Assembly (NCBI RefSeq): GCF_000255295.1 | Contig: NC_017030.1 | Coordinates: 2,108,001-2,172,000, forward strand | Source of the DNA: Corallococcus coralloides DSM 2259 | GTDB taxonomy: Bacteria; Myxococcota; Myxococcia; Myxococcales; Myxococcaceae | Length of the DNA: 64,000 nucleotides | Reading direction: 5' to 3' | Part shown: positions 10,993 to 58,057 of the stretch, in pieces | How the letters are laid out: every line of letters begins with the position of its first letter | How positions within the stretch are numbered: the stretch's first letter is position 1 | The notes under the pieces: generated by a model | Told to the model about the DNA's origin: nothing | What the model saw: the letters and a program-made list of their open reading frames with translations, nothing else | Databases searched by the model: none | Made by a program: the position numbers and the translations under genes

Positions 10993-11081
10993 TGAAGCCG
11001 GCGCTGTAACCTTTTTCCGTCCTCGTTCGTGGTGGCCGTTGGATGCCCGGAATGCGCCGGGCGCCGGGACGGAGGACGGAC

Positions 11082-12386
11082 ATGCAGGCGACGAAGGTGG
11101 CCGTGGTGGGCGGGGGACTGGGCGGGCTCACGGCGGCGGCGCTGCTCGCGCGCGGCGGCTGCGAGGTGACGGTGTACGAGCGCTCCAAGCACCTGGGAGG
11201 GCGGGCGAGGACGACGGAGGTGGAGGGCTTCCGCTTCAACCTGGGCCCGCATGCCCTGTACCGGGCGGGCGCGGCGTTCCGGGTGCTGGAGCGCCTGGGC
11301 GTGAAGCCCACGGGAGGCATTCCGAATCAGACGGGTTCCCATGCGCTGGTCGGCGGCCGGCTGCACACGCTGCCTCGGGGCGCCGTGACGCTGATGACGA
11401 CGGATGTGCTGTCGCTCGCCTCGAAGCTGGAGGTGGCGAAGCTGTTGGCGGGACTGGCCCGCATCGACACGCAGCCATTGGGGGCCATGTCGATGCGCGA
11501 GTGGCTGGAGACGCACCTGACGCGCAAGGACAGCCAGGCGCTCATCGGAGCGCTGATTCGCGTGTCCTCATACTGCGCGGACTTCGAAGCGCTCAGCGCG
11601 GAGGCGGGGCTGAAGCAGCTCCAGTGCGCGACCGCCGCGAACGTGCTGTACGTGGACGGAGGCTGGAGCACCCTGGTGGACGCGGTGGAGCGGCTGGGAC
11701 GTGAGGCTGGCGCCCGGCTGGAGCTGTCCGCGCGAGTGGATGCCGTCGTCCTCCAGGAAGGGGGCAAGTGGGTTGAAGGCGTGCGGCTCGCGGATGGCAC
11801 GGTGCACCGCGCGGACGCGGTGGTGATGGCGGGGAGCCCCGCGGACGTGGCGGCGCTCATGCCGGGAGACGCGGTGCTCGCGCGGGAGGCGCGGGAGGCG
11901 GTGCCCATCCAGGCGGCGACGTTGGAGCTGGGACTGTCGGCCCTGCCGAGACCGGATGCGCTGTTCGCGCTGGGACTGGATGGGCCCTGGTACGCGTCGG
12001 TGCATTCGGCCTCCGCGAAGCTGGCCCCGGAAGGGGGCGCGATGGTGCACGTGGCGAAGTACCTGGGCGGCGCGGACACGGAGGCGAGCGAAGCGGCGCT
12101 GGAGGCCGTGATGGACGCGCTTCAGCCGGGATGGCGCGCGAAGGTGGTGGCGCGGCGCTACCGGCCCTCGCTCACCGTCAGTGCCGGGTTGCCCCGTGCC
12201 GTGAACGGCGGACTGACCGGGCGTCCCTCCGTGGAGGTGCCGCACGTGGGCGGACTGTTCCGCGTGGGCGACTGGGTGGGCTCGGAGGGCATGCTCGCGG
12301 ACGCATCCCTGGCGAGCGCCGAGGCCGTGGAGCAAGCCCTGGTGCGACGCACCGCGACGTCCCAGCGCCGCGCGGCGGGAACTTGA
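11082..12386 (+). CDS. FAD-dependent oxidoreductase, phytoene-desaturase/amine-oxidase type
   Basis: A 434-residue flavoprotein. The N-terminal dinucleotide-binding motif V-V-G-G-G-L-G-G-L with a following Y-E-R and L-G-G-R-A-R-T is the classic GxGxxG plus FAD signature of the NAD(P)-binding amine oxidase/carotenoid desaturase superfamily. A late G-L-F-R-V-G-D-W motif closes the FAD site. The substrate is unknown; terpenoid or carotenoid dehydrogenation is a guess from the fold. A GGAGG site lies just before the ATG at 11082. The 3' end runs straight into the 69-bp repeat array, beyond which lies an ECF41 sigma factor. Redox enzymes are the usual partners of that sigma group. Confidence 0.82.
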   Translation: MQATKVAVVGGGLGGLTAAALLARGGCEVTVYERSKHLGGRARTTEVEGFRFNLGPHALYRAGAAFRVLERLGVKPTGGIPNQTGSHALVGGRLHTLPRGAVTLMTTDVLSLASKLEVAKLLAGLARIDTQPLGAMSMREWLETHLTRKDSQALIGALIRVSSYCADFEALSAEAGLKQLQCATAANVLYVDGGWSTLVDAVERLGREAGARLELSARVDAVVLQEGGKWVEGVRLADGTVHRADAVVMAGSPADVAALMPGDAVLAREAREAVPIQAATLELGLSALPRPDALFALGLDGPWYASVHSASAKLAPEGGAMVHVAKYLGGADTEASEAALEAVMDALQPGWRAKVVARRYRPSLTVSAGLPRAVNGGLTGRPSVEVPHVGGLFRVGDWVGSEGMLADASLASAEAVEQALVRRTATSQRRAAGT

Positions 12387-12438
12387 GGTGGATGGGCGCA
12401 CAGGCCAGGAGCCCCTCCCCGGCGGCGCAGAGCAAAAA

Positions 12439-13354
12439 CCTGTCGGACAGTCGGACAGGTTGTGCGGACCGTGCCCGGGTCCTCTCGCGGACTCCTGGAC
12501 GAGGAAACCTGTCGGACAGTCGGACAAGTTGGAAGGACCGTGGCAGGCCCCCCAGGCTGCCCGGGCAGCAGGAAAACCTGTCGGACAGTCGGACAGGTTG
12601 GGCGGCCCTCAGCCGGAAGCTCCTGTTCCATCCCGACGGCGAAAACCTGTCGGACAGTCGGACAGGTTGGGGGCCTTGGTCCGGCTCCCAGGGGCCGGAT
12701 CCAGGAAGCAAAACCTGTCGGACAGCCGGACATGCTGGGGGATCCTGGCGGGGCTCCCAGGCGCCGACTCCAGGCCGCGGGAACCTGTCGGACAGTCGGA
12801 CAAGTTGGGCGGACCGTGGCAGGTCCCCGCGCTGCCCCGGGCAGTTGGAAGACTTGTCGGACAGTCGGACAAGTTGGGCGGACCGTTACCGGGCCCTCGG
12901 CGCTGGTTCCTGGCCGCGGGAACCTGTCGGACAGTCGGACCGGTTTGGGGGACCAGGCAAGCCCTGGGGCGACCCCGAATGGCGGAAACCTGTCGGACAA
13001 TCGGACAGGTTGGGCGGACCGTGACCGGGCCTTCGGTGCTGGCTCCAGCCTGCGGAAACTTGTCCGACAGTCGGACCTGTCTTGCGGACCGTGGCTGGTG
13101 GGGGCTCCTCCCCGTCCGGGCAGTGGAAACCTGTCGGACAGTCGGACAGGTTTTGGAACACCGCCGCCGGGGGAGGTCTCTCCCAGCTCGGGCCGAGGAA
13201 ACCTGTCGGACAGTCGGACAGGTTGGGGACCTTGGCGGGGCTCGTGGGCTTTGGCTCCGGACCGGGGAAACTTGTCGGACAGGTTGGGGACCTTGGTCGG
13301 GCTCGTGGGCTTTGGCCGCGGACCTTGGAAACTTGTCCGACAGTCGGACAGGTT
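12439..13354. repeat. 14-copy 69-bp interspersed/tandem repeat array
   Basis: Fourteen copies of a 23-bp core, CCT(GTCGGACA)2GGTT, start at 12439, 12508, 12577, 12646, 12714, 12784, 12853, 12923, 12989, 13059, 13130, 13202, 13271 and 13332. Steps are 66-72 bp, except the last (61), because copy 13 lacks one 8-mer. With flanking bases most cores form an inverted repeat AACCTGTC / GACAGGTT around 9 nt. Copy 7 changes both arms together (CTTGTC with GACAAG), which keeps pairing. The roughly 46-bp stretches between cores are related to one another (GCGGACCGTGG... then ...CCGCGGGAA), so this is a degenerate minisatellite and not CRISPR. Steps that are not multiples of three argue against coding. 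Confidence 0.92.
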
Positions 13355-13468
13355 TGGCCCGGTCCGGCCCGGCGGGGCTTGGCTTGGAGGTTCGGGGACT
13401 TGGGGGCCCCGGCACTGTGGTGCTCCAGTGATGCTCTTGGATTGTTGGAACGTGGGGGCTTGAACGGG

Positions 13469-14428
13469 ATGGATTCACAGGCGCGAGGAGCACTGGGGCA
13501 GGCCGCACGCGAGCACGAGCGCTTCCTCTGGGGGCTCTGCTACCGGATGACCGGCGTGGCGGCGGACGCGGATGACCTGGTGCAGGACGTCTATGCGCGC
13601 GCGCTCGCGACACCTCCGGAACGTCTGGACACCCTGCGCCCCTGGTTGACCCGCGTGGCGGTGAACCTGGCGCGAGACCACCTGCGCCGCCGCCGCCGCG
13701 AGGGCTACGTCGGTCCCTGGTTGCCCTCGCCGGTGGAGACCGGCGACGAGGAGGTCCTACCCGCCGTGGAGGCACGGCTTCCGGGCGGCGGCTCGACGGA
13801 GGGGCGTTACGAACTGCTGGAGAGCGTCTCCTTCGCCTTCCTGTTGGCGCTGGAGGCCCTGTCGCCCAAGCAGCGGGCAGTGCTGCTGCTGCGCGATGTC
13901 TTTGATTACTCGGTGCTGGAAGTGGCCGAGGCGCTGCGCATGAGCGAAGCGAACGTGAAGGTGGTGCACCACCGCGCGCGCTCGGCCATGGCCGCGTACG
14001 ACCAGTCACGTTGCGTGCCCACGCGCGACGTGCAGGAGCGCACGCGGGCTTCGCTGGAGGCCTTCCTGGGTGCCCTGGTGACGGGAGACGTGGCCGCCGC
14101 GGAGGCGCTGCTGGCCTCGGATGTGCGTGCGCTGTCGGATGGTGGCGGAAAGGTGCGCGCGGCCCTGGTTCCCATCGTGGGCCCTCAGCGCGTCGTCCTC
14201 TTCATGCGCCGGCTGCTGGAGATGCGAGGCCCGCCCGTGGCGTGGGAGGCGAGGATGCTCAATGGCCTGCCCGCCGTGGTGGCGGTGTTCCATCCGGGAG
14301 CGGATCCATTATTGGCCCTGAACACGGTGCTTCGCGTGGACGTGGACTCCAGCGGACGCATCCATGCGCTGCATTCCGTGTTGGTGGACCGGAAGCTCAT
14401 GGGGGTGCGCATGCCCGTGCCGGAATGA
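13469..14428 (+). CDS. ECF41-type RNA polymerase sigma factor with SnoaL-like C-terminal domain
   Basis: A 319-residue ECF sigma factor. Region sigma2 spans about residues 13-75 (D-A-D-D-L-V-Q-D) and sigma4 about 118-178 (L-S-P-K-Q-R-A-V then S-E-A-N-V-K-V). The linker has W-L-P-S-P at 84-88, close to the WLPEP motif of group ECF41, and the C-terminal extension has D-G-G-G-K at 224-228, the group's hallmark. In ECF41 proteins the extension both inhibits and supports activity in place of an anti-sigma factor. The frame stays open into the repeat array, so gene callers may overextend it; the ATG at 13469 begins right before sigma2. No carboxymuconolactone decarboxylase partner is adjacent, but an FAD oxidoreductase lies across the array. 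Confidence 0.92.
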   Translation: MDSQARGALGQAAREHERFLWGLCYRMTGVAADADDLVQDVYARALATPPERLDTLRPWLTRVAVNLARDHLRRRRREGYVGPWLPSPVETGDEEVLPAVEARLPGGGSTEGRYELLESVSFAFLLALEALSPKQRAVLLLRDVFDYSVLEVAEALRMSEANVKVVHHRARSAMAAYDQSRCVPTRDVQERTRASLEAFLGALVTGDVAAAEALLASDVRALSDGGGKVRAALVPIVGPQRVVLFMRRLLEMRGPPVAWEARMLNGLPAVVAVFHPGADPLLALNTVLRVDVDSSGRIHALHSVLVDRKLMGVRMPVPE

Positions 14429-14502
14429 CACGGACTTCGTGGAAAAAGGGTCCTGATAAAACTTTCACAGAGCGTATCCGTTTGAGCGCACTCCCCGGGA
14501 GA

Positions 14503-14519
14503 GGCGAGCAGGGCTCGCC
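14503..14519. promoter_or_regulatory. hairpin in the leader of the 14543 lipoprotein gene
   Basis: GGCGAGC at 14503-14509 and GCTCGCC at 14513-14519 form a perfect 7-bp stem with a 3-nt loop, 23 bp before the ATG at 14543. It could end sigma-factor transcription or shape the lipoprotein leader. There is no T-tract after it. Confidence 0.4.
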
Positions 14520-14542
14520 ACGTCCATCTGAGAGGAACTCGA

Positions 14543-15937
14543 ATGTCGATGCGGAAGATGTGGGTCCCCAGGATTCTGATGTTGGGTGGTCTGACGTTGC
14601 TCGCCGGTTGCGGCCGTGAGCCCCGCCCCGTGGAGGTCATCCAATCCCGAGGGGCTGAAGGCGTTGCGCTGCTCATCGAGCGGGAGGCCGGAACAGGGCC
14701 CTACGTCGAAAGCACGGCGGAGCGCTTCCGGGTCGTCGCCTCGGGCGAAGTCATCAAGTCCGTGCGCTGGAGCGCCAACGCGGGTGTCGTCGAGCCTTCC
14801 GATGAGCGGGTCACCTGGACGCTGCCCACGGCGGGGACGGCGTCCCTGTCCGTCACCGTCGAGACGGAGTCCGGCAAGACGGCGGAGGGCGCGTTCCAGT
14901 TCAGTGTGGTGGCCGCGCCGCTCGCCTCCCACTCCGCCATCGACACGAGGCCGGATGTCACCGGCAGCAGCTGCGACATCGCGTTCGACAGCACGGGCAA
15001 GGGGCACGTCATCTACACGAACGACACCCACAACAGCCTGTGGTACGCGAGCTGGGACGGCGCGTCCTGGACGACGGAGCAGATTGACGGTCCCGGCTTC
15101 AACAACGGGGGCGTCTTCGTCGTGAAGAGCCAGCTGGTCGTCGACCCTGTCACGGGCACGCCGCACGTCGCCTACTCCAAGGGAACCGGCAACATCACCA
15201 ACACGACGACGCGGGTGGGCTATGCCACGCGCGTCAATGGCGCCTGGGTTCGGGAGGAGGTCGACTCATCAGTGGTGATGCGCTTCAGCATCGCGCTCAA
15301 CCCGGCGCAGGCGCAGCAGCCGGTCATCGTCTTCACCTCCAACCCTTCGGCGGGCGTCAAGGTCGCGACCCGGACAGCGGCGAACACGTGGTCCACCGTG
15401 ACGCCCTCCACCAGCATCCATGCGCTCACGAGCGACGCCCTCTTCGACGCGACCGGAGCGCTGCACTTCATCACGCACCAGTCCGCGAGCGGCTACGTCA
15501 GCCAGTACCTTCAGGTCCTCCGGGGTTCGACCCTGGAGTCCTTCGCGCTGAAGACCAGCACCTCCGCGCCCTGGCTCGCGACGGCCTGGGGGCCGGACTC
15601 GCACCTGCTGGCGCTCTCCAACGGCATCTCCGAAGGCGAATGGAACGCCATCGAGGACATCACGGTCGGGACGCCTGCCGCGTCCAGCACCCGGAGGGTC
15701 TCGACGGTGGATTACAAGTACGCCTCGTCGGCCCTGGCCTACGGCGGAGGCAAGCCGGTCGTCGTCCTGCGCAATGGGACGGCGCTGACGCTCGGAACGA
15801 CGGACGCGCAGGGCTTCTGGACGTACACGCAGCTGGGAACGGTGGAGGACAACAGCCGTCCGAGCGTGGCGATCCGTCCCACGGATGGCGTGCCGCATGT
15901 CTGCTACCAACGGGACGGCAAGGTGACCTTCCAGTAG
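14543..15937 (+). CDS. lipoprotein with Ig-like and BNR/sialidase-like repeat regions
   Basis: A 464-residue protein whose signal peptide ends in L-L-A-G-C, a good lipobox. Residues about 50-130 read like a beta-sandwich (Ig-like) domain, and the rest has repeated segments of the form G-x-x-W followed by P-x-V-A-Y/C-Y, as in beta-propeller proteins of the BNR/sialidase type. No catalytic residues can be named. AGAGGAA precedes the ATG at 14543 at a good distance. It follows the ECF41 gene by 114 bp in the same direction, so it could be a target of that sigma factor, but no promoter motif proves this. Confidence 0.7.
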   Translation: MSMRKMWVPRILMLGGLTLLAGCGREPRPVEVIQSRGAEGVALLIEREAGTGPYVESTAERFRVVASGEVIKSVRWSANAGVVEPSDERVTWTLPTAGTASLSVTVETESGKTAEGAFQFSVVAAPLASHSAIDTRPDVTGSSCDIAFDSTGKGHVIYTNDTHNSLWYASWDGASWTTEQIDGPGFNNGGVFVVKSQLVVDPVTGTPHVAYSKGTGNITNTTTRVGYATRVNGAWVREEVDSSVVMRFSIALNPAQAQQPVIVFTSNPSAGVKVATRTAANTWSTVTPSTSIHALTSDALFDATGALHFITHQSASGYVSQYLQVLRGSTLESFALKTSTSAPWLATAWGPDSHLLALSNGISEGEWNAIEDITVGTPAASSTRRVSTVDYKYASSALAYGGGKPVVVLRNGTALTLGTTDAQGFWTYTQLGTVEDNSRPSVAIRPTDGVPHVCYQRDGKVTFQ

Positions 15938-39151: not shown

Positions 39152-41635
39152 ATGAACTCATTGATTGGCTTTCGCTTCCACCTGGCACTGCTGGCGGTGC
39201 TGACGCTCCTGGGCACCGGCTGTGATTCCGACCCGGAGCCGCCGCGGCCCCAGCCGAACTCCCCCACGCTCGTCGAGAGCACGCAGTCCGCCGTCAACCT
39301 GATGGCCAACGAGACGGTGACGTTCCACGTCGCCGCGAAGGACGGCGCGCAGCGGACCCTGGGCTTCAGCTGGGAGGCCAGCGCGGGTGTCCTGGAGCAG
39401 CAGCAGAGCACCGCGACGACCAGCGACGTGCGCTGGAAGGGCCCGGAATGCCTGCCCGCTGGAACGCGCGTCAAGGTGACGGTGACCATCACCAACGGCG
39501 TGGCGCCCGCCATCACGCATCGCTTCGGGCTCTCCGTCGTCGCGTGTCCCGGGGCACCGGCCGTCGCCGCAGGCCGCTACCACTCGCTGATGGTCCGCCC
39601 TGACGGCACGGTCCTGGAGTGGGGCCTCTCCTATCTCCGCTTCGACGGCGGCGTCCGCCCGGTGCCCGGACTGACCGACGTCCGGGCGGTGTCGGCGGGG
39701 AACGAGCACGCCCTGGCCTTGCGCACGGACGGCACCGTCTGGGCATGGGGGAGCAACTTCGCTGGACAGCTTGGGGACGGAACGAAGACGTCCCGCTCCA
39801 CGCCGGTGCAGGTGGTGGGGCTGACGGAGGTCATCGCCGTCTCCGCGGCGGGCTACTCCTCGTTGGCCCTGCGCAAGGACGGCACCGTCTGGGCGTGGGG
39901 GGACAACGAATCCGGCCAGCTTGGCGACGGGACGATGGAGGGACGTCTCACGCCCGTGCAGGTGCTGGACCTGGTCCGGGTCACCGGCCTTGCCGCGGGC
40001 CGGGGGCACTCGCTGGCCGTGCTCGCGGATGGGACGGTCCGGGCGTGGGGAGCCAACATCTACGGTCAGCTTGGCGATGGAGGATTCAGCTTGGAGGGGA
40101 ACCCCCGCCCGGTCGCGGTGTCCAAGCTGACGGACGTGGTCTCCGTCGCCGCGAGCACCTCGCTCTCGTTCGCGGTGCACTCGGACGGCACCGTGTCGTC
40201 GTGGGGCTCCAACGTGGATGGGGCCCTGGGCGTGGAGCAACGGTCCAACAGCAGGGTTCCGAGCAAGGTGTTCGGATTGACCGACGTGGCCACCGTCTCC
40301 GTGGGCGGCTACTACGCGGTGGCCCTGATGGGGGATGGCACCGTCCGGAGCTGGGGAAACAACGACTCCGGCCAGCTCGGGGATGGCACGTACATCCGCC
40401 ATACTCCAACGCCGGTGCCGGGACTGACGGGCGTCACGGCCGTGTCGGCGGGGGAAGACCATGTCGTGGCCGTGCTCTCCGACGGGAGCCCGCGGGTCTG
40501 GGGCGACAACCAGTTCATGCAGCTGGGGCGCCCCCCTGAGTCCGTGAACCGCGGCGGACCCGTGCAGGTGCCGGGGCTGACGGAGGCGAGCCTCGTGGCC
40601 GCGGGTAAAACCCATTCCCTGGCCCTGCTCGCGGATGGCACGGTCTGGGCCTGGGGCGACAACAGCTTCAGCGCCCTGGGCCTTGGCGACGAGCCCGGCG
40701 CCAGCCCGACGCCCGTCCAGGTGCCGAAGCTCGCCGGAGTCAGGAGCCTCGCCGCGGGGGAGAACTCCTCGCTGGCGGTGCTCGCCAATGGCACCGTCAT
40801 GGCGTGGGGCTACGGCCTCTTCGGGCAGCTGGGGTCGGAGTCCGCGTCCATCTTCCAGATCCCTGAACCCATCTTTGGGCTGAGCGGCATCACGGCCGTG
40901 GCCATGGGCCATTGGTATTCGCTGGCCCTGCGCGAGGACGGCACCGTCTGGTCCTGGGGGTACAACGCCAGTGGCCAGCTTGGCGATGGGACCACCGACG
41001 AACGTCCCAGGCCGGGGCAGGTGGCGGGGCTGACGCAGGTCACCGCCATCGCCGCGGGGGCAAGCCATGCGCTGGCCCTGCGTGCGGATGGCACCGTCTG
41101 GGCGTGGGGTAGCAACGCCTTGGGGACCCTGGGGGATGGAACGCAGACGTCCCGCTCCACGCCGGTGCAGGTGCAGGGCCTGACGGGCGTCATCGCCGTG
41201 GCGGCGGGGGAATACCACTCCCTGGCCCTGCGCGAGGACGGCACCGTCTGGTCCTGGGGGAACAACAACGAGGGCCAGCTCGGCGACGTGACGGCGAGCA
41301 GCCGCCAGTCCCCCGGGCAGGTGCCCGGCCTGGCGGGAGTCCAGCGCATCGCCGCGGGCGAAAAGCATGCGCTGGCCGCGGTCGAAGGAGGCCCCCTCGT
41401 CGCCTTTGGGAAGAACACCTCCGGCCAGCTGGGGCTGGGCGAGCGAAAAGAGAACCAGTCGCGCGGAGAGATCGCCTCGCTTCGTAATCCCCGCGGCATC
41501 GCGGCGGGCATTGCCCACACCCTGGCCGTGGCGGCGGACGGGACCGTCTGGGCCTGGGGCGCCAATGCCACGGGTCAGCTCGGCAATGGCGAGGCGGCGA
41601 ACAGCCCCCAACCCATCACCGTGAAGCTGCCGTAG
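39152..41635 (+). CDS. RCC1-repeat lipoprotein A (two seven-blade propellers predicted)
   Basis: An 827-residue lipoprotein (lipobox L-L-G-T-G-C). A beta-sandwich domain spans about residues 40-130. It is followed by 14 RCC1-type repeats of about 50 residues, each with H-S-L-A-L-R-x-D-G-T-V-W-A-W-G and G-Q-L-G-D-G-T. Fourteen is twice seven, so two seven-bladed propellers are likely. RCC1/BLIP-II-type propellers bind proteins; the partner is unknown. The DNA of the repeats is also repetitive and may recombine. A related 14-repeat protein is encoded at 55811-58057. An ATG at 39107 is possible but would spoil the signal peptide. Confidence 0.88.
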   Translation: MNSLIGFRFHLALLAVLTLLGTGCDSDPEPPRPQPNSPTLVESTQSAVNLMANETVTFHVAAKDGAQRTLGFSWEASAGVLEQQQSTATTSDVRWKGPECLPAGTRVKVTVTITNGVAPAITHRFGLSVVACPGAPAVAAGRYHSLMVRPDGTVLEWGLSYLRFDGGVRPVPGLTDVRAVSAGNEHALALRTDGTVWAWGSNFAGQLGDGTKTSRSTPVQVVGLTEVIAVSAAGYSSLALRKDGTVWAWGDNESGQLGDGTMEGRLTPVQVLDLVRVTGLAAGRGHSLAVLADGTVRAWGANIYGQLGDGGFSLEGNPRPVAVSKLTDVVSVAASTSLSFAVHSDGTVSSWGSNVDGALGVEQRSNSRVPSKVFGLTDVATVSVGGYYAVALMGDGTVRSWGNNDSGQLGDGTYIRHTPTPVPGLTGVTAVSAGEDHVVAVLSDGSPRVWGDNQFMQLGRPPESVNRGGPVQVPGLTEASLVAAGKTHSLALLADGTVWAWGDNSFSALGLGDEPGASPTPVQVPKLAGVRSLAAGENSSLAVLANGTVMAWGYGLFGQLGSESASIFQIPEPIFGLSGITAVAMGHWYSLALREDGTVWSWGYNASGQLGDGTTDERPRPGQVAGLTQVTAIAAGASHALALRADGTVWAWGSNALGTLGDGTQTSRSTPVQVQGLTGVIAVAAGEYHSLALREDGTVWSWGNNNEGQLGDVTASSRQSPGQVPGLAGVQRIAAGEKHALAAVEGGPLVAFGKNTSGQLGLGERKENQSRGEIASLRNPRGIAAGIAHTLAVAADGTVWAWGANATGQLGNGEAANSPQPITVKLP

Positions 41636-55810: not shown

Positions 55811-58057
55811 TCAGTGGATGCCCTGGACCTGGACCGGGAACCAGGCCTCGGTGGTGTCGCCCGTGCCCAGCTGGCCCTTGATGTTGAGCCCCCAGGCCCA
55901 GACGGTGCCGTCCGCCTTCATGGCGAGCGAGTGCTGGTCGCCCGCGATGATGGCCACCGCGTTGGACATGCCCGCCACCAGGCCCGGGGAGAGGCGGGGC
56001 GTGCTGGTGCCGTTGCCCAGCTGGCCCTCGAAGTTGAAGCCCCACGCCCAGACCCAGCCGTCCGAGCGCAGCGCCAGCGAGTGGTAGCTGCCGGCGGCGA
56101 TGGAGGTGATGCCGCTCAGTCCCGGCACCTGGAGGGGCTGAGCGCTGCCCTGGGTCGTGCCCACGCCCAACTGTCCGCTTGCGTTGTAGCCCCAGGCCCA
56201 GACGGTGCCATCCGCGCGCAGCGCCAGCGAATACAGGCTGCCGGCGGCCAGCGACACCACGCTCGACAGGCCCACGGCCTGGACCGGCACGAGCGTCCAG
56301 GTCCGCGTTCCGTTCCCCAGCTGGCCATCGAAGTTGTAGCCGAAGGCCCACACCGTCCCGTCCGAGCGCAGCGCCAGCGAGTGGCTTCCCCCCGCGGCGA
56401 TGGCCACGATGTTGGAGAGCCCCGACGCCTGGACGGGCTGGCGCCGGTCCACCGCCGTCCCATCCCCCAGCTGGCCATAGCGGTTGAAGCCCCAGGCCCA
56501 CACGGTGCCATTCGAGCGCAGCGCGAGCGAGTGGTTGTCCCCCGTCGCGATGGCGGTGACGCCGCCGAGGCCCACGACCTGGACGGGCGTGGGCCGGTCC
56601 GTGACGGTGCCCTCGCCCAGCTGGCCGAAGCGGTTCATCCCCCACGTCCACACCGTGCCGTCCGAGCGCAGCGCCGCGGTGTGCCGGTACCCCGAGGCGA
56701 CGGAGATGACGTCCGTCAGGTTCACCGGAAGCGGCAGGGAGCTGTCCTGTTGGGTGCCGTTGCCCAGCTGGCCCTGCTGGTTGTCCCCCCACGCCCACAG
56801 CCGCCCGTTCGCGCCCAGCATGACGGTGTGGAGCTGGCCGGAGGTCGCGTCCGCGCGGCCCAGGGCGAGCCCCGACACCTGGACGGGGGCCATGCGGGGC
56901 TCGAACGTGGTGTCCCCCAGCTGGCCGAAGACGTTGTCGCCCCAGGACCAGGCCGTGCCGTCCGCGCCCAGCGCCACCGAGTGCCTGTAGCCGGCCACCA
57001 GCGTGACTCCGCCCGTCATGCCCGCCTGGAGCGGAAGCGGGCTGCTGGTGAGGTTGCCCGTGCCGAGCTGCCGGTAGCGGTTGTCCCCCCAGGCCCACAC
57101 CGCGCCGTCGGTGCGCACGGCCAGCGAATGGTAGTTCCCCGCCACCAGGGTGCGGACGTCCGTCAGGCTGACGGAGACGGGCTGCGTCCGCTGGGTGTTC
57201 GTTCCATCCCCCAGCTGCCCGTACGCGTTGTGGCCCCAGGCCCAGACGGTGCCGTCCGCGCGCAGCGCCAGGGCGTGGTACGCGCCGACGGAGACGCTGA
57301 CGACCGAGTCCAGGCTCGCCACCTGGACCGGGGTGATCCGCCGCACGGTGGTGCCATCCCCCAGCTGTCCGTAACGGTTGTCCCCCCAGGCCCACAGCGT
57401 GCCGTCGGCGCGAAGCGCCAGGGACGACGAGCCTCCAGCGACGACGGCCACGACGCCACTGAGTCCGGGGACCTGGAGGGGGACGCTGCTGCGCGTGAGC
57501 GTCCCGTCGCCGAGCTGGTTGTTGCGGTTGTCCCCCCAGGCCCAGACCGTGCCGTCCGCGCGCAGCGCGAGCACGTGGGCGAAGCCCGAGGCCAGGGACA
57601 CCACGTTGGACAGCGCGCTCACGCGCTGGGGCAGCAGCCGGGACGTGAGTGTTCCATCGCCCAGCTGGCCGCTGGCGTTGTCCCCCCAGGCCCAGACCGC
57701 TCCATCCGCGTCGAGCGCCAGGGAGTACTGATCCCCGGCCGCCACGGAGGTCACCTGCGTCAACCCGGCCACCTGGACGGGGGAGGCCTTGTCGCGGCTG
57801 GTGCCGTCGCCCAGCTGGCCCAGGCGGTTGAAGCCCCACGCGAAGACCGTTCCATCCGAGTGCACGGCCAGGGAGTGGTACTGCCCGAGCGCCAGCCGGA
57901 CCGGAGGCAGGCGTTCCCCGGCCCGCTGGCGGACGGTCGCCTCGCGGGGAGCGGCGGCGCCGGGGAGGTCCGCGCCACACGCGGCACAGAGGACCCCCAG
58001 GGCCAGCAGGCCGGCCCGCCAGGACCCTCTCGTCACGCCGTCGTTCCTCGGGCCCAT
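55811..58057 (-). CDS. RCC1-repeat lipoprotein B (two seven-blade propellers predicted)
   Basis: A 748-residue lipoprotein (lipobox L-C-A-A-C). It has 14 RCC1 repeats of about 50 residues, each with the pattern H-S-L-A-L-R-x-D-G-T-V-W-A-W-G and G-Q-L-G-D-G-T. Like protein A (39152), it should fold into two seven-bladed propellers on the cell surface. It has no N-terminal Ig-like domain. It precedes the vWA/dockerin gene on the same strand by 16 bp and follows the cytochrome gene by 25 bp. Confidence 0.88.
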   Translation of the reverse strand: MGPRNDGVTRGSWRAGLLALGVLCAACGADLPGAAAPREATVRQRAGERLPPVRLALGQYHSLAVHSDGTVFAWGFNRLGQLGDGTSRDKASPVQVAGLTQVTSVAAGDQYSLALDADGAVWAWGDNASGQLGDGTLTSRLLPQRVSALSNVVSLASGFAHVLALRADGTVWAWGDNRNNQLGDGTLTRSSVPLQVPGLSGVVAVVAGGSSSLALRADGTLWAWGDNRYGQLGDGTTVRRITPVQVASLDSVVSVSVGAYHALALRADGTVWAWGHNAYGQLGDGTNTQRTQPVSVSLTDVRTLVAGNYHSLAVRTDGAVWAWGDNRYRQLGTGNLTSSPLPLQAGMTGGVTLVAGYRHSVALGADGTAWSWGDNVFGQLGDTTFEPRMAPVQVSGLALGRADATSGQLHTVMLGANGRLWAWGDNQQGQLGNGTQQDSSLPLPVNLTDVISVASGYRHTAALRSDGTVWTWGMNRFGQLGEGTVTDRPTPVQVVGLGGVTAIATGDNHSLALRSNGTVWAWGFNRYGQLGDGTAVDRRQPVQASGLSNIVAIAAGGSHSLALRSDGTVWAFGYNFDGQLGNGTRTWTLVPVQAVGLSSVVSLAAGSLYSLALRADGTVWAWGYNASGQLGVGTTQGSAQPLQVPGLSGITSIAAGSYHSLALRSDGWVWAWGFNFEGQLGNGTSTPRLSPGLVAGMSNAVAIIAGDQHSLAMKADGTVWAWGLNIKGQLGTGDTTEAWFPVQVQGIH

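Follow-up and report, generated by a model that had tools for sequence, protein, structure and literature searches.

This locus raises the question of why some fourteen copies of a short inverted repeat stand in a row between two genes, and what, if anything, recognizes them. The window, by which we mean the whole stretch of 64,000 nucleotides analysed, is C1:2108001-2172000 of G000, a single-contig Corallococcus genome of 10,080,619 bp from a predatory soil bacterium. The array (12435..13357, without an assigned strand, as are its palindromes) lies between a FAD/amine oxidoreductase gene upstream (11043..12386, plus strand; PF01593) and a gene for a sigma-70-family (ECF-like) sigma factor downstream (13469..14428, plus strand; PF04542 and PF08281). 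The fourteen-copy array of the original prediction, with its unit of about 69 bp, proved real: TRF reported tandem repeats with a period of 69 at 12436-13152 and of 61 at 13213-13343, and together with a core search it resolved 13 double-box palindromes and one half-size, single-box copy. The CTGTC starts of the double-core palindromes are 12440, 12509, 12578, 12647, 12715, 12785 and 12854 for the first seven and 12924, 12990, 13060, 13131, 13203 and 13333 for the remainder. Their spacing is 66-72 bp, and the last gap, across the single-core copy, is 130 bp. Palindrome 1 (12436..12461) reads AAACCTGTCGGACAGTCGGACAGGTT and holds two TGTCGGACA-type boxes with a central A common to both; the central base is A in all 13 double-core palindromes of 12435-13357. 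The single-box copy, fourteenth by count (13269..13285), has one core only, AACTTGTCGGACAGGTT. Individual variants had also been described correctly. Palindrome 7 (12850..12875) is altered in both arms (ACTTG...CAAGT, at 12854), and the 17-bp form TGTCCGAC-A-GTCGGAC claimed for copies 10 and 14 was found at 13060 and 13333, that is, as the core GTCCGAC-A-GTCGGAC of palindrome 10 (13056..13081, with the right arm CCTGT) and of the last palindrome (13329..13354).

Within the array, pairwise identity was 90% for the palindromes and 57% for the linkers, compared with 48% for shuffled linkers; therefore the palindrome has been held while the linker drifts. The linkers are not unrelated to one another, unlike CRISPR spacers. 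A/T runs adjoin the palindromes, in keeping with the earlier remark that several hairpins are followed by TTTT as in terminators, but a simple pattern scan of 12300-13500 found no terminator-like site (shuffles gave a mean of 1.1). An Rfam search of 11000-15000 returned nothing over threshold, the only hit being MIR439 with 24.5 bits against 90. Elsewhere in the window, 150-bp tandem repeats were seen at 39714-39998, 40922-41377 and 56007-56675, which by eye we take to resemble RCC1-type repeats.

The motif is not unique to this locus but occurs in all 16 Corallococcus genomes searched. At up to two mismatches the core was found 232 times on the plus and 210 times on the minus strand of G000, totals that overlap because palindromic sites score on both strands, and the pattern read backwards was not found at all; the array motif is therefore far above chance. 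For a closer view, 117 blocks covering 1.91 Mb of G000 were examined, some evenly spaced and some picked around listed sites. With a 21-base motif at a score of at least 16, these blocks yielded 93 clusters that comprise 291 sites in total; 46 of the clusters are single sites. The lowest score, 16, was reached by 19 sites compared with 31 in the backwards sequence, and scores of at least 17 by 272 compared with 4; lone sites at a score of 16 may be due to chance. Clusters with a score of at least 19 were intergenic in 68 cases and within genes in 7, according to our own simple gene caller.

The pattern of variation among these sites bears on whether the palindrome is read as DNA or as RNA. Across 264 sites with a score of at least 18, the 15-bp core varies at three positions only, 6 (78%), 10 (52%) and 14 (84%), the remaining core positions standing at 97-100% and the outer arms at 83-96%; the site motif permitted C/G and A/T at these three centres, which favours variation there. 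They lie, in this order, at the middle of the left box, of the palindrome as a whole and of the right box. Variation confined to dyad centres fits two boxes better than a hairpin, since a symmetric protein cannot distinguish either letter at such a centre, which is then free to vary. Among 246 sites with a score of at least 19, the pair 6:14 was C-G in 157, G/G in 44, C/C in 39, T/G in 5 and C/A in 1, so that it is unpaired in 84 even if T-G is counted as paired. The compensating change claimed for the arms is present in copy 7 alone; copies 2 and 6 are changed in one arm only, and the 246 sites showed no base-pair covariation, Watson-Crick counts being at or below those expected from independence at all 10 of 10 pairs, in a set picked by a motif that disfavours sites with both arms changed. 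RNA readings of the palindrome, among them the hairpin array suggested earlier, are thus weak, because the arms show no covariation in G000 and the simple terminator scan was empty. Arm symmetry is what a dimeric protein requires. A symmetric foldback element with two long arms was also considered and dropped, as the two flanks of one cluster are scarcely more complementary (mean 13.3) than flanks taken from different clusters (13.1). An outer arm resembling ATGAGAAGGTGAGAACC is common to 16 of the 93 clusters, for example those at 960424 and 992531; it stands on only one side, 47-55 bp away from the first palindrome, and could be where a mobile unit ends.

Several of the sites flank genes that begin with a GntR winged helix. 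One copy of the encoded protein was scanned in detail: its N-terminal GntR winged helix matched PF00392 (E 6.5e-12, 45.4 bits against a cut-off of 27), and the same copy gave no FCD or FadR C-terminal Pfam match at E 0.1. PADLOC, run on one copy, gave no hit. A model of the regulator (mean pLDDT 83) nevertheless resembled FadR (1e2x), with a Foldseek TM of 0.70 by target length and a VIA-align Z of 18.0 at an rmsd of 3.6 over 215 residues. It does not score as FadR proper, reaching 23 bits for NCBIfam TIGR02812 against a cut-off of 249.2 and falling far short of the NCBIfam FadR models. G000 carries 12 copies of the family, and each of the 15 other Corallococcus genomes gave between 0 and 15 matches at E 1e-3, fragments and weak matches included; across the 16 genomes the number of matches follows the palindrome count (Spearman 0.75, p 7e-4). 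A scan of named genomes gave 60 regulator loci, mostly in Corallococcus, the others being in Archangium sp. SZUA-606 and Archangium violaceum together with two distant matches. Among Corallococcus-group loci with 200 bp or more of upstream DNA, a palindrome with at least 10 of 12 symmetric pairs was present upstream in 41 of 41 (39 from Corallococcus and 2 from a Myxococcaceae MAG), 120-250 bp ahead of the first helix codons. The Archangium violaceum regulator, 48% identical in protein sequence, has GCAACTGGTCCGACTGTTGGACCAGTTGG at -231, and two Archangium sp. SZUA-606 loci have no upstream palindrome. A block, CATGTCAGACCC, with a further GT-CAG-AC box is conserved before the start codon of all 12 G000 copies; it also occurs at L217 and L219, even in SZUA-606 copies that have no palindrome.

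By flanking DNA, 48 of 56 regulator loci (44 of the 60 named ones plus the 12 of G000) have a counterpart in one or more other species. Yet identity among the regulator copies of a single genome averages 0.84-0.95, and syntenic orthologs exceed the remaining pairs between their two species by no more than 0.02; G000 and C. interemptor, for example, gave 0.818 (n=7) for syntenic orthologs and 0.810 (n=113) for the others. All ten copies from C. interemptor fall together in the regulator tree, and the copies of G000 and AS-1-6 cluster mostly, although not wholly, by species. On these comparisons the family is under concerted evolution and homogenised within each genome. Pairwise homology of G000 copies often starts at a palindrome edge or spans further palindrome repeats. 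In regulator copies such as those at 401326-402015 and 6833718-6834407 of G000 the C-terminal tail is hypervariable and of low complexity, and in most copies (10 of the 12 in G000) it contains an in-frame degenerate palindrome that encodes a GNLSDCRTG-like peptide.

One residue of the protein varies together with the palindrome. Residue 27 of the regulator aligns with FadR Arg35 (1hw1; query residues 5-76 to chain residues 13-84), and its invariant Arg37 occupies the position of FadR Arg45. We tabulated 80 distinct regulator copies, 61 of which have a usable gene-proximal palindrome; by hand sorting, the other 19 comprise 12 at contig edges, 5 distant GntR proteins and 2 SZUA-606 copies. The arms are CTGG/CCAG in 9 of 9 copies with Arg27 and in none of the 52 with another residue, namely Ala, Gln, Glu, Lys, His, Val or Tyr (hypergeometric p 6e-11, to be read with the fact that the 61 copies are related and represent fewer independent events). 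T replaces the outer G in both arms of 50 of these 52, and the other two, L140 and L142, show G in a single arm. The choice of palindrome required a GTCSGAC-like core, so that a different operator would be missed. The rule also held within genomes: the single Arg27 copy of G000 is paired with its single CTGG palindrome, and in C. exercitus it held for L190 and L193, which have Arg, and for L192, L198, L202, L204, L207 and L220, which do not. Sister copies in C. carmarthensis follow it as well (L199 Arg, L211 Lys). Copies examined later agreed, with Arg and CTGG in G060 and G011, Gln and TTGT in G059, and Glu27 with CCTG, in a poor palindrome, in G108; single copies of G018, G029, G074 and G076 had no such upstream palindrome.

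The inner half-sites did not change with residue 27. The boxes are of the form GT-CSG-AC, with the FadR-subfamily spacing of 3, and their outer half is TGGT with Arg27 and mostly CTGT or TTGT otherwise. FadR Arg35 and Arg45 touch two consecutive guanines, according to PMC4333415. PMC4494728 gives the FadR-subfamily consensus as TKGT/ACMA with a GT-AC spacing of 3, and correlates the Arg35 position with a TKGT site across the subfamily. Since residue 27 and the outer base agree in a way that is consistent with the FadR contacts, the palindrome is very probably the operator of the FadR-like regulator.

Gene and palindrome were then compared across 96 genomes of the family. The palindrome was scored at up to one mismatch, for which the backwards control gave one plus-strand and one minus-strand hit, in a single genome (G070); the gene was scored at E 1e-20 among at most 30 candidates per genome, and gene absences refer to these candidates. 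Both were present in 23 genomes, the palindrome only in 3, the gene only in 5 and neither in 65 (Fisher p 2.4e-14). The association held outside Corallococcus, where the corresponding numbers were 8, 2, 5 and 65 (p 1.8e-6). In genus g41 the gene occurs in 1 of 27 genomes and that genome alone has palindromes (10), and six genomes of g8, probably the genus of Archangium violaceum, have 9 to 61 sites. The sites listed for G022, G059, G060, G061 and G062 are mostly of the CTGG type, with a few CTTG and CGGG arms. There were misfits. G014, G061 and G063 have the palindrome without the gene among the scored candidates, and the gene without the palindrome was found in G074 (31 copies), G076 (16), G077 (6), G033 (1) and G027 (1). 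G059 has 30 palindromes, those listed being of the CTGG type, yet the only gene detected has Gln27. G074, G076 and G077 belong to genus g16; one copy each from G074 and G076 was inspected and no clear palindrome was seen upstream.

The array in the window shows turnover in copy number. At its orthologous place there are 13 copies plus a single-box one in G000, 16 in G013, 10 in G011, 7 in G006, 4 in G001, 2 in each of G003 and G008 and at least 3 in G010, where a contig edge intervenes. The place is empty in G004, G005, G014, G015, G002, G009, G012 and G007, and in 6 of these 8 genomes the neighbouring genes are about 12 bp apart. The description of the array as a minisatellite was in this sense apt, with 0 to 16 copies at one place in 16 species. 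A second place behaved similarly, with 7 copies in G001, 4 in G006 and 1 each in G000, G008, G010, G011 and G003; it is empty in G004, G009, G007, G002 and G015, differs in G013, and gave no usable match in three of the 16 genomes. Away from regulator genes, 53 intergenic orphan clusters lie in 33 tandem, 15 convergent and 5 divergent gaps. Divergent gaps are avoided (5/53, where about 30% would be expected; p 5e-4), and convergent gaps are over-represented (15/53 compared with 13% by length, p 3e-3). This placement speaks for elements that are tolerated away from promoters. A conserved local regulatory role of the array is unlikely, because there are 0 to 16 copies per species and divergent pairs are avoided. 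Orphan arrays may instead lack a local target and act as operator satellites of a selfish or titrating kind, growing through slippage or conversion, a view we take tentatively and at somewhat less than even odds; the titrating (sink) role we infer from location only.

The central base of the palindrome varies with the replichore. Judged by GC skew, G000 has its origin close to 0 and its terminus somewhere from 5.2 to 5.4 Mb. With the terminus at 5.33 Mb, 28 of 32 arrays with at least three copies had A as the central base if they lay on the left replichore and T if they lay on the right, one further array being tied; in G006 the central base agreed in 32 to 37 of 44 clusters, depending on the placement of origin and terminus. 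At distances of at least 2.5 Mb from the origin the effect weakens (19/31), and single sites in G000 showed no such preference (17/29). The intergenic background has an AT skew of opposite sign, the linkers have no consistent skew, and genes were not co-oriented (771/1516). A polarity of whole arrays was rejected: exact cores had hinted at it (a terminus at 5.2 Mb gave agreement in 20 of 22 clusters, and one at 5.33 Mb in 17 of 22), but the orientation of G000 arrays by their linkers matched the replichore in 15 of 33 only. Site lists at one mismatch, which seemed incomplete by strand, did not enter the polarity counts.

These observations also weigh on other explanations of the array. If the palindromes with their flanking A/T runs were bidirectional intrinsic terminators, forming a hairpin on either strand after genes, the symmetric AAAACC...GGTTTT ends of many copies and the excess of orphan clusters in convergent gaps and their shortage in divergent ones would be accounted for. 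That reading is very improbable, however, given the empty scan of 12300-13500, the broken 6:14 pairs and arms without covariation, copies that lie upstream of regulator genes and track a protein residue, and the lack of any need for thirteen terminators in a row. A plain minisatellite or mobile repeat, spread by slippage, conversion or an unseen transposase and bound by no protein, would explain the variable copy number at both places, the gaps of about 12 bp in most empty genomes and the outer arm common to 16 of 93 clusters. It would leave the residue covariation and the genome co-occurrence unexplained, and the greater conservation of palindromes than linkers within one array argues against it; we consider it unlikely on its own. 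Such spread is compatible with the operator reading, as the way in which operators spread.

It is doubtful that each dispersed site, this array included, is a regulon operator for the gene beside it, which in this case would be the sigma-factor gene. The array does end about 110 bp before the start codon of that gene, and the palindrome lies upstream of regulator genes, but divergent gaps are avoided (5/53) and the array is absent from the orthologous place in 8 of 16 species. The replichore bias of the central base, in turn, would suit chromosome-organising sites read relative to the replication fork. Neither linker orientation nor single sites share this bias, it fades away from the origin, and 6 of the 16 Corallococcus genomes have no more than 20 sites, all of which make that role highly improbable.

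We propose that the array consists of tandem operators for a family of FadR-like GntR regulators encoded in trans, a prediction from sequence to which we assign a probability of roughly 0.8. Each full unit would comprise two GTCSGAC boxes (GT-3-AC) 8 bp apart, flanking one central base, and would be read by one dimer or by two side by side. Arg37, the counterpart of FadR Arg45, would read the inner G, and residue 27, the counterpart of FadR Arg35, would read the outer position, which is G when the residue is Arg. Autoregulation is probable for the regulator genes of Corallococcus and Archangium violaceum, because the same palindrome lies about 120-290 bp upstream of them. The linkage of gene and palindrome, the agreement of residue and base in 61 copies, the co-occurrence across genomes, the FadR-like predicted fold and the turnover in copy number were all computed here; the first three support, by inference, the bound protein that had been offered as one option for this locus. 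More tentatively still than for the orphan arrays, the two may form a satellite-like pair in which operator arrays multiply genome-wide, regulators multiply and are homogenised, the recognition residue coevolves and turnover is tied to the direction of replication.

Short palindromes that are dispersed between genes and sometimes clustered are known as REP/BIME repeats, which go with RAYT transposases. The Corallococcus palindrome is linked to a DNA-binding regulator instead, and G000 gave no match to Y1_Tnp (PF01797), the transposase expected of a REP/RAYT system. DNA uptake sequences acting as paired terminators consist of a short word present twice, in inverted orientation, close to the ends of genes, and differ in that the terminator scan was empty here. 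E. coli FadR resembles the regulator in its predicted fold and in a winged helix with Arg at the Arg45 place, and the FadR operator resembles the palindrome in its GT-3-AC boxes and the rule that joins Arg35 to the outer G. The regulator is only about 15% identical to FadR, however, and has no FCD/FadR C-terminal Pfam match, and its box is doubled, its gene multi-copy and its sites number in the hundreds. The direct repeats of E. coli NanR, named in PMC4494728, likewise pair a GntR protein with adjacent repeated boxes; in Corallococcus a pair of boxes makes up each 25-bp palindrome, and the palindromes occur in arrays of as many as 16 and are scattered through the genome. We found no description of this regulator-palindrome system in the open-licence full-text literature, and nothing relevant on repeats in myxobacteria there, one paper having only a CRISPR mention.

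To our knowledge, dispersed palindromic repeats of bacteria have rarely been assigned a partner protein. Here such a partner is predicted, together with a specificity rule that depends on one residue. The hundreds of sites scattered over the chromosome, alongside a dozen regulator copies, suggest that protein and site have multiplied jointly and, if this is true, the pair would provide a natural system for the coevolution and proliferation of a regulator and its binding sites.
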